Source: a virus
Length of the DNA: 27,191 bases
Virus record (IMG/VR): IMGVR_UViG_3300044638_001261
Location: 1 to 27,191 of that record
Direction: 5' to 3' (one strand)
Shown here: positions 1,941-5,571 of the stretch, one piece after another
How positions within the stretch are numbered: the stretch's first letter is position 1
Layout of the letters: the number at the start of each line of letters is the position of its first letter
Made by a program: the position numbers and the translations under genes
Notes under the pieces: generated by a model
Databases searched by the model: none
Told to the model about the DNA's origin: nothing
Seen by the model: only the letters and a program-made list of their open reading frames with translations

Positions 1941-2693
1941 TCAGTCTGGCAGGTCGATGCCGTGCCATGTCACCGGCACGAGGTCAGTCGGGCGCAGTAG
2001 TTTGATGGTGTGCATGGCCGCTTGCATCTTGCTGATCTGGATACGCATGTCGTTGATCTCCTGCTGTTTGAAGATGTGCGTGTCGGTCAACTTAGCATCG
2101 GCAAGCTCCACGGCCATGCGGCGCTCAAGGATGGCCAGCTCCTTGTCGGTGCGCTCAATGAGGCGGCGCTTATGTATGGCGTGCTGTGTCGTAGGCCATC
2201 GGCGCTCGAACGGGGTCTTTTGCCTCACGCCCTTGATGTAGGGTATCTGGGCGAAGTACTCCTTGATGAGCGCTATCTTCTTGGGCGGCATCCAGTCCGT
2301 CCAGTGCTCGCCTTTGTTGGGGACATTTGTCCCCGCCGCCAGTTTGGTGGGCGTTTCCTCTGAGGTGTTGGCCTTGAGTACGAGCCGCCCGATGATGGCG
2401 TCAAGCACCATGAGATAAGCCTCCAGTGCAAGGGTGCGTTCGGGGCTGTTATTGGCTAAATCTAAACTCAACATCCTCTGCACGATGCGGCGTTCGGCCT
2501 TGGCAGGGGCTATGAGGTCGCCCCAAAGTCGCTTGTGTTGCGTATCTCGGGCGAGATGTGCGAACTTCTTGTGCCTCTCGGACATCACCTGAGATATGAG
2601 TTCTTCAGCATATCCCAGCGGTAGCTTACGCTTGGCGAGGGTTTTGCGTAAGGTGCTTTCGCTCATACGCAGGTAGGATTTGGGAAAATCCAT
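1941..2693 (-). CDS. Hypothetical basic, coiled-coil phage protein, 250 aa
   Basis: Two in-frame ATGs (2697-2699 and 2691-2693) follow GGAG. The first is only 2 nt from it and the second 8 nt, so I choose the second (MDFPKSYLRMSESTLRKTLA). The same GGAGATATGACTATG arrangement recurs before the 46-residue gene at 3892. The protein is basic. Residues about 1-50 are helical and could bind nucleic acid. A central segment (HWTDWMPPKKIALIKEYF) precedes a long charged helix (IERTDKELAILERRMAVELA and onward) likely to form a coiled coil. It is the first gene left of the repeat-rich region at 2700-3098. A role in acting on that region is an inference from adjacency only; I do not recognise the family. 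Confidence 0.8.
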   Translation of the reverse strand: MDFPKSYLRMSESTLRKTLAKRKLPLGYAEELISQVMSERHKKFAHLARDTQHKRLWGDLIAPAKAERRIVQRMLSLDLANNSPERTLALEAYLMVLDAIIGRLVLKANTSEETPTKLAAGTNVPNKGEHWTDWMPPKKIALIKEYFAQIPYIKGVRQKTPFERRWPTTQHAIHKRRLIERTDKELAILERRMAVELADAKLTDTHIFKQQEINDMRIQISKMQAAMHTIKLLRPTDLVPVTWHGIDLPD

Positions 2694-2735
2694 AGTCATA
2701 TCTCCTTTTCATACCGAGTTTTGGACAGAGTGGGA

Positions 2736-2764
2736 ATTGTATCGCATGTTGTGCTAAGCGTCTG
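2736..2764 (-). promoter_or_regulatory. Weak candidate leftward promoter
   Basis: Read on the minus strand, TACAAT (plus 2736-2741) is a good -10 box. The hexamer 17 nt upstream (CAGACG, plus 2759-2764) matches the -35 consensus at only three positions and overlaps a TGGACA box. It would start transcription just before the 250-residue gene. It could need an activator, or be chance. Confidence 0.22.
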
Positions 2765-2998
2765 GACACCCCGCAGGCCGCATGGATAAAGGCATTGGAC
2801 AGAAAGTGTCCAGCTCACTATCTAACAAACAACTAGCCATAGCCAAAGCCTTTAAGTAAAAACAAAAGCCCGAGCAAACGCATATACACACTCTCTAATA
2901 TATATTATATATAAAGATTTAGATAGAGGGTGCGGACACTTACCCCCCAGAACCTAGCATCCATGCGGGTTGCGGCTGTACTGGGTGCTTAGCACAAA

Positions 2999-3086
2999 GT
3001 GCGATAAGAAGGGACGGTCTGGACACTTAGTCTTATCTCAATTTTGTACGAGTCTTATCTCAAATCCGTACCGAGTCTTATCGCAC
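2999..3086. repeat. Iteron-like repeats (AGTCTTATC)
   Basis: AGTCTTATCTCA occurs at 3029-3040 and 3051-3062. AGTCTTATC occurs again at 3074-3082, followed by GCAC. Spacings are 22 and 23 nt, about two helical turns, and the copies are separated by similar spacers containing GTAC. An exact inverted copy of the third repeat's 11 bp (GTGCGATAAGA, 2999-3009, versus TCTTATCGCAC, 3076-3086) closes the cluster on the left. Confidence 0.8.
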
Positions 3087-3098
3087 CCTGTTGTCTGC

Positions 3099-3114
3099 GG
3101 GGAGAAATCTCCCC
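3099..3114. repeat. Family B intergenic hairpin, copy 2
   Basis: GGGGAG-AAAT-CTCCCC. On the leftward transcript it begins 4 nt after the TGA of the 70-residue gene. The fixed, close position after a stop codon recurs at copies 3 and 4. Confidence 0.8.
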
Positions 3115-3118
3115 AAGA

Positions 3119-3331
3119 TCAGAAAAGTGCCTGCTGTACTGGCGCCATGTTGCGCTCAAGCCAACGCTCGAAGCTGGCCTCACAGGTAAAGGAGATGCCG
3201 CAGGTCGGTCTGCCCACGGGGACAGCCGAGGTGATCTTGAAGTCACGCCTGTCTGTGGGGTAGTAGTCGAATAGATCGTAGTCGCCGCAGGGCAGAGACA
3301 AGACGCCGACATGTTTGATGTGCTGTTTCAT
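3119..3331 (-). CDS. Hypothetical small phage protein, 70 aa
   Basis: The gene starts at ATG 3329-3331 (MKQHIKHVGVLSLPCGDYDL) with AAGGAG 6 nt upstream and stops with TGA at 3119. An overlapping frame on the same strand, 3055-3312, is rejected because it has no ribosome site and runs through the family B hairpin. The protein is near neutral, with several cysteines (PCGDYD, PTCGISFTCEASFERWLER) and a C-terminal amphipathic helix. No family is recognised. Its leader carries the full family B then A hairpin pair. Its 3' end borders the repeat-rich region, making it the last gene before that control region. Confidence 0.75.
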   Translation of the reverse strand: MKQHIKHVGVLSLPCGDYDLFDYYPTDRRDFKITSAVPVGRPTCGISFTCEASFERWLERNMAPVQQALF

Positions 3332-4908: not shown

Positions 4909-5571
4909 ATGTTGGATCACTTGTTAGATTTTGAGCCGCCAGTGGTTGAGGCCACCGGCAAGGACGTGTCCGGGTTGGACAGGGCAACGCCCGACCAAAT
5001 ACTCAACGCACAGGTCAATACGACCAAATGGCTGGAAAAACTTGGCGTCGAAGACGACCAAAAGATTCTGCAAGAGGCCGAAGCCAAGGCAGCACGCACA
5101 GTTTTCGCAACGCTGGCCAACAATGCGACCCCCGCCGAGACCAAAAACCAGTTGACGCTGCTCAAAACGCCGGAGTCCGTCAGGCATCTGGTGACGCTGC
5201 TGTCTGCATACGACTGGGAGTTTGTGGAGCAGGCCAAGCAGATGCGCGGCATGGCGGTCGCCAAGATTATTGAGGAAACCAACCACCCCGACGCCCGGAT
5301 CAGGCTTAAAGCCATTGAGATGCTTGGGCGCGTGACGGAAGTAGCACTGTTCACGGACAGGTTGGAGGTCAAGAAGACTGATCTGACGGACGCCGAGATC
5401 GACCAGAAGCTCCAAGACAAGCTCGACAAGCTGCTCAACGTCATAGATGTGGACATCACCGTTGGCGAAACCACGGCAGACATCACGGACGTGGAACCCA
5501 GCACGCTAGATGAGAGTGAGCACTCACTAACATCCGAAGAACCTCCAGCCCCCACCGACGATGAATCTTGA
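4909..5571 (+). CDS. terS: Terminase small subunit (putative)
   Basis: The 220-residue protein directly precedes the large terminase and overlaps it by 11 nt. This is the usual place for the DNA-recognition subunit of the packaging motor. The N-terminal half is helical (TPDQILNAQVNTTKWLEKLG, then a charged helix). Residues about 110-150 contain ARIRLKAIEMLGRVTEVALF-type sequence, which I recall from small terminases of T7-like and marine phages. The C-terminus is acidic and low-complexity (VEPSTLDESEHSLTSEEPPA). The start at 4909 has only a weak AAGG 11 nt upstream, whereas a strong ribosome site sits at the in-frame leader ORF 25 codons earlier. The functional N-terminus is therefore uncertain. 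Confidence 0.72.
   Translation: MLDHLLDFEPPVVEATGKDVSGLDRATPDQILNAQVNTTKWLEKLGVEDDQKILQEAEAKAARTVFATLANNATPAETKNQLTLLKTPESVRHLVTLLSAYDWEFVEQAKQMRGMAVAKIIEETNHPDARIRLKAIEMLGRVTEVALFTDRLEVKKTDLTDAEIDQKLQDKLDKLLNVIDVDITVGETTADITDVEPSTLDESEHSLTSEEPPAPTDDES

Follow-up and report, generated by a model that had tools for sequence, protein, structure and literature searches.

What function is served by a gene-free stretch in which repeated boxes, inverted copies and an A/T-only run lie side by side is the question raised by this locus. To our knowledge, replication origins are unknown for nearly all uncultured phages, and a first-pass annotation had read the stretch as a possible iteron-type origin. 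The window, by which we mean the whole stretch of DNA analyzed, is a virus record of 27,191 bases in which end repeats are absent. The element occupies a 419-bp gap between two leftward genes, namely a 252-aa gene (1941-2699, start at 2699) and a 70-aa gene (3119-3331, stop at 3119). The sequence comparisons described here suggest that this element is probably a bidirectional phage origin in which iterons accompany a melting core and a pair of ssi-like hairpin sites facing outward, and a putative origin was located in this way from sequence by independent signs converging on one place. The element and its boxes are as follows.

2700-3118, unstranded: intergenic element, putative origin region, without credible ORF; its profile matches about 25 further loci upstream of TerL
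3029-3037, plus strand: iteron-like box 1, AGTCTTATC
3051-3059, plus strand: iteron-like box 2, AGTCTTATC
3074-3082, plus strand: iteron-like box 3, AGTCTTATC, missing in the relative L003
2999-3009, minus strand: inverted 11-bp box copy on the outer boundary of the right arm (see below), GTGCGATAAGA at 2999-3009 versus TCTTATCGCAC at 3076-3086
2796-2812, unstranded: TGGACA palindrome TGGACAGAAAGTGTCCA
2896-2915, unstranded: A/T-only run of 20 bp

The boxes were largely found as the first-pass annotation had described them. The three direct copies of AGTCTTATC, starting at 3029, 3051 and 3074, lie outside the right arm and are 22 and 23 nt apart, which corresponds to two helical turns and is near the helical-turn spacing of the direct repeats in iteron origins; the box is absent elsewhere in the window, and dinucleotide shuffles gave a mean count of 0.08, with none of 100 shuffles reaching three. 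The exact 11-bp inverted copy and the five TGGACA boxes (+2722, +2763, +2796, -2807 and +3020), two of which form the palindrome, are also present, and the gap indeed holds no credible gene, whereas the A/T-only segment measures 20 bp and not the 18 bp given previously. Over the whole window, TGGACA occurs 20 times compared with 17 expected, that is, without over-representation; since this hexamer is common across the window, only its clustering in the gap is notable.

The 252-aa gene was found in ten viral contigs at 70-99% identity, and the region upstream of it is shared. The first-pass annotation had named repeat spacing in relatives as a check, and in close relatives the 22-23 nt spacing is retained despite drift of the box, which reads GAGATAT or GCGATAT in place of GAGATAA; L003 has lost one box, and two are present in L007-L009 and L011. 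In about 25 further contigs that encode a related TerL, a profile of the region detected diverged copies, which lie 2-3 kb ahead of that gene in unchanged orientation. The conservation of the region in close relatives is similar to that of the whole neighboring gene and exceeds that of the third codon positions of that gene, as in L009 (70% versus 56%). The enriched boxes vary among members, including GATAAGA, GTGGGTA, TGCGAAA, GTGGACA and TCCACAA. The phages carrying the element form a large, little-known family from fresh water (lakes), the terminase of which is related to that of the abundant HTVC023P-type pelagiphages. Family genes include a family-A (PolA) DNA polymerase, an SNF2-type helicase, an exonuclease and a DUF927 primase-helicase, the last being present in 12 of 13 long family records; these genes are absent from the window fragment itself.

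Beyond its boxes, the gap constitutes a single large imperfect inverted repeat around the A/T core, which was overlooked in the first-pass annotation. Its parts are listed below.

2740-2825, plus strand: left arm of the long imperfect inverted repeat; alignment to the right arm gives matches at 63 of 85 positions, with an nhmmer self match on the opposite strand
2919-3006, minus strand: right arm of the long imperfect inverted repeat, recovered by alignment, nhmmer and dyad scan
2883-2942, unstranded: least stable 60-bp stretch of the element, putative melting region (-65.8 kcal/mol versus a window mean of -85.7)
2775-2792, plus strand: degenerate inverted arm motif copy in the left arm (PWM score 20.8)
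2954-2971, minus strand: arm motif copy AACCCGCATGGATRCTRG in the right arm (PWM score 35.4)

A dyad scan performed without alignment to relatives gave a score of 62 for the gap versus 34 at the runner-up in the window. The element is the strongest dyad of the whole sequence in the window and in 9 of 11 relatives, ranking second in G009 and third in G007, and at the level of single loci, the strongest inverted repeat fell within the same zone, 1.7-3.3 kb upstream of TerL, at 38 of 44 loci. Because A/T-rich DNA readily self-pairs, the scan was redone leaving out the central 90 bp and weighting G/C matches. In this version, the element kept the top rank in 8 of 12 genomes; it came second in G009 and fourth in G010 and lay outside the top four in G002 and G007, and DSL-LC04 dropped out. 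Therefore, the dyad claim is strong for the family as a whole, not for each member, and is weak for DSL-LC04. The principal conserved feature is the pair of mirror-image arms, and the direct repeats are just one part of the element.

No equivalent dyad was seen in the scan of the terminase relatives HTVC023P, HTVC027P and MinM2. In phage 023Pt_psg01, the strongest dyad (52, next 40) lies in a large gap before terS (L145:13639-13861), with GGCACACTTGGCACA repeats between its arms. The top dyad score of all loci (113) was recorded in L044, the iteron of which is AAAGCGTGCAATGA at a spacing of 21 nt and in which a segment of approximately 38 bp with a GGACAG box is duplicated beside the element (L044:757-890). 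A telomere resolution site (telRL) was considered for the dyad and rejected, as the arms are imperfect, whereas such a site has a perfect central palindrome, and the protelomerase family PF16684 was absent from 13 records, with the positive control matched.

The calculation of duplex stability points to the same place. In all 11 related genomes or long contigs and also in DSL-LC04, the 60 bp with the lowest stability anywhere in the sequence lie inside the element, so that the easily melted A/T-rich region adjacent to the repeats of iteron origins is represented here by the genome-wide stability minimum of the relatives; at the level of single loci, the least stable 60 bp fall inside the zone upstream of TerL at 41 of 42. 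In the 27-kb window fragment, one other locus is less stable than the element. Past the core lies an 80-nt stretch that is rich in T when read on the strand of the 252-aa gene (T 0.34-0.39, A 0.20-0.24).

Each arm contains one copy of a motif, CCCGCATGGATRCTRG, the two copies being inverted. The left copy, which is degenerate in the window, is better kept in relatives, with PWM scores of 30.1 in L013 and 33.4 in L016. Many members have a copy of CGCAACCCGCATGGATRCTAGCG in each arm, inverted and 170-200 bp apart, and a recognizable motif is missing in about a third or more of members. One inverted site per strand, the arrangement of an ssi pair, is therefore found in many members, the exceptions being L067 and L073, in which both copies point in one direction. 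On each strand, the motif is located 5' of the A/T core, and priming there would thus lead outward on both sides.

The arm motif is not confined to this family. The pattern AACCCGCATGGATRCTRG was found in at least 120 IMG/VR stretches, compared with 5 for a shuffled pattern of equal composition; 40 of the new motif loci match the family TerL, and most of those remaining are other phages with 41-67% GC. At the non-family loci, 15 copies follow an ORF of 550 aa or longer at a distance of no more than 400 bp, and no copy precedes such an ORF within the same distance, the background for this position behind a long ORF being 3% of random positions. Nine of the ten such long ORFs tested have primase/helicase domains (DUF5906, VapE-like, PriCT_2, Toprim and AAA_25), and the tenth is a terminase. 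Among 60 nearby ORFs of the non-family loci, DNA primases and integrases were the commonest named families, and for 54 ORFs more than 3.5 kb off, no primase was among the 25 families listed. The motif is intergenic in annotated records. In 4-kb E. coli plasmids, its neighbors include iterons and an A/T-rich tract as well as a DnaA box and the rep gene; in a pIGWZ12-type plasmid, about 200 bp separate it from the iterons, A/T-rich tract and rep gene, and in a Deefgea plasmid, a copy with three mismatches adjoins a replication initiator gene. Further copies occupy intergenic gaps in phages of Pseudomonas, Erwinia, Klebsiella and Escherichia, several of them without an adjacent primase, and RaK2 and the detreviruses carry it without a neighboring primase gene.

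Known sites were compared as possible sources of the motif. Neither the R100 replication region tested nor phage P4 contains the motif, and the R100 G site and P4 crr were rejected for want of a match. A text search of 5.39 million papers, covering little of the older plasmid literature, found the motif letters nowhere in print. As R100 and P4 lack the motif and some phage copies have no primase nearby, its link with replication is an association only. From its position and hairpin shape, we infer that the arm motif may act as a single-strand initiation site. More tentatively, the CCCGCATGGATRCT hairpins could be an undescribed, widespread priming signal that is shared by phages and plasmids otherwise unrelated, most of them from Proteobacteria, and that is read by a common host factor, for example DnaG primase; the present phage family would then pair them, mirrored around a melting core, to start both leading strands. 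The motif may serve as a searchable tag for locating the replication regions of unrelated phages and plasmids, and it raises the question of which primase or host factor reads it.

Two further occurrences of the motif were observed. A Pseudomonas aeruginosa plasmid has four tandem copies at exactly 128-bp spacing upstream of mobI (L272:2875-3280). The jumbo phage RaK2 and its relatives have two sites with a perfect 21-nt match to the variant AACCCGCATGAATACTGGGTT (L277:3001-3021), which are intergenic and situated among lysozyme-like and small unknown genes.

Concerning the function of the element, the origin proposed in the first-pass annotation is supported by the retained box spacing, the stability minimum, the family-wide dyad and the primase-linked motif, although the direct repeats on their own make up only part of it. 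In the mechanism that we envisage, a phage initiator, either the 252-aa neighbor or the DUF927 primase-helicase, would bind the boxes and arms on both sides; the A/T core would then melt and the helicase would load, and the hairpin-forming motif on each strand would provide the start of leading-strand priming, outward in both directions. No DnaA box was found in the window element; a DnaA box is not needed in phage-type origins. In several genomes, the cumulative GC skew reaches its minimum no more than about 1 kb from the element, where gene direction switches too, and leftward genes compared on both sides of the element showed a weak skew difference (p = 0.04, the relatives not being independent). 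Because gene direction changes nearby, the GC skew argues neither for nor against an origin.

Such an element is known in kind, and what distinguishes it from described phage origins is the mirrored arrangement around the core together with the shared arm motif. In the IncQ plasmid RSF1010, RepC binds the iterons, the helix opens and the primase starts at ssiA and ssiB, one per strand, resulting in bidirectional replication (PMC6925257, PMC4434180). By analogy, the element would resemble RSF1010 oriV in its iterons, strand opening, one site per strand and bidirectional start, whereas here both putative ssi-like sites flank the A/T core. The pIGWZ12 origin, situated upstream of rep, contains iterons together with DnaA boxes and an A/T-rich region (PMC6856555), and the plasmid type has the same motif near the iterons and rep; in pIGRK, an ssi palindrome is located beside 20-bp iterons with 2-nt spacers (PMC6854812). 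Both plasmids differ from the element in having a single motif and a Rep-type initiator gene, and the long dyad is not seen there. In herpes simplex OriS, inverted binding boxes flank an A/T-rich spacer (PMC12543377), giving the same box-core-box symmetry in an unrelated virus; origins of the OriS type also use an SF2 origin-binding protein of the UL9 type. The bacteriophage lambda origin likewise has phage iterons beside a melting A/T-rich region (PMC5043065), but it lies inside the O gene, and no O/P homolog was found beside the element. In phage P4, the cis-acting crr directly follows the primase-helicase gene, which is the position of the arm motif in many unrelated phages, but P4 lacks the motif and its crr is a pair of direct repeats.

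The gene next to the element bears both on the identity of the box binder and on the possibility of a regulatory function. The relevant features are given here.

1941-2699, minus strand: all-helical protein of 252 aa, candidate binder, with homologs encoded immediately downstream of the element in almost all cases
2736-2741, minus strand: TACAAT, a possible -10 element for the 252-aa gene on the outer boundary of the left arm; conserved as GCGATAYRAT in close relatives

A homolog of the 252-aa protein is nearly always encoded directly downstream of the element (27 sequences, with the exception of L078). Its AF2 model is all-helical with a pLDDT of 89; a fold search with this model gave no match in PDB, and the BFVD matches were uncharacterized proteins of uncultured phages only. 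No known family was found for this neighbor, no known initiator was found beside the element, and the alignment of the diverged 252-aa family is without conserved stretches. In a second class of relatives, the protein encoded behind the element has an N-terminal zinc ribbon (CxxC...CxxC; L041:7067-7813), and this class matches the 252-aa family only faintly (E about 3e-4). GTGGGT boxes track the zinc-ribbon class, with a mean of 4.2 versus 0.6 per 600 bp, uncorrected for kinship, as would be expected if the neighboring protein binds the boxes. From its adjacency and this correlation of protein class with box type, the 252-aa protein is a candidate box binder.

The same observations would fit a complex operator/promoter, in which a repressor or activator, perhaps the 252-aa protein, binds the boxes cooperatively and controls the leftward early operon. 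The boxes are in a flanking position, their type follows the class of the neighboring protein, and -10-like hexamers beside the 252-aa gene are present in most members and better than background across the family. We nevertheless consider an operator alone unlikely, since the dyad and melting core span 270 bp, mostly distant from the gene start, a symmetric divergent promoter is implausible where the right-hand genes are also leftward, the arm motif elsewhere sits downstream of primase genes and not ahead of them, and a sigma-70 promoter scan gave no consensus-grade match. With regard to possible promoters in the arms for a T7-type RNA polymerase, a search with PF00940 gave no match, the positive control being likewise unmatched. 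Initiators usually autoregulate, and the operator and origin readings can therefore both hold.

A packaging (pac) site bound by the small terminase is very improbable. Pac sites may contain repeated boxes and the element lies 2-3 kb upstream of TerL, but four leftward genes separate it from the likely terS (4909-5571), a genome-wide stability minimum is no feature of pac sites, and the arm motif also occurs in plasmids.

Least probable of all is a structured RNA (a leader, ribozyme or small RNA), for although the region folds far better than shuffles (z = -6.1), the two strands fold about equally well in 30 members, arm mismatches on the transcribed strand show no G-U excess (50 G-T versus 78 A-C, a rough test as the rows are related) and Rfam gave no match, so that a DNA-level dyad is the simpler reading.

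Apart from the putative origin, a palindrome GGGGAG-N4-CTCCCC occurs five times at the ends of leftward genes in the window (1908, 3099, 3385, 3989 and 4462), and relatives have palindromes of other sequence at comparable places, for example GGGGACACAATGTCCCC in L027 and L034. These gene-end palindromes are likely to be phage-specific terminators or RNA-processing hairpins.
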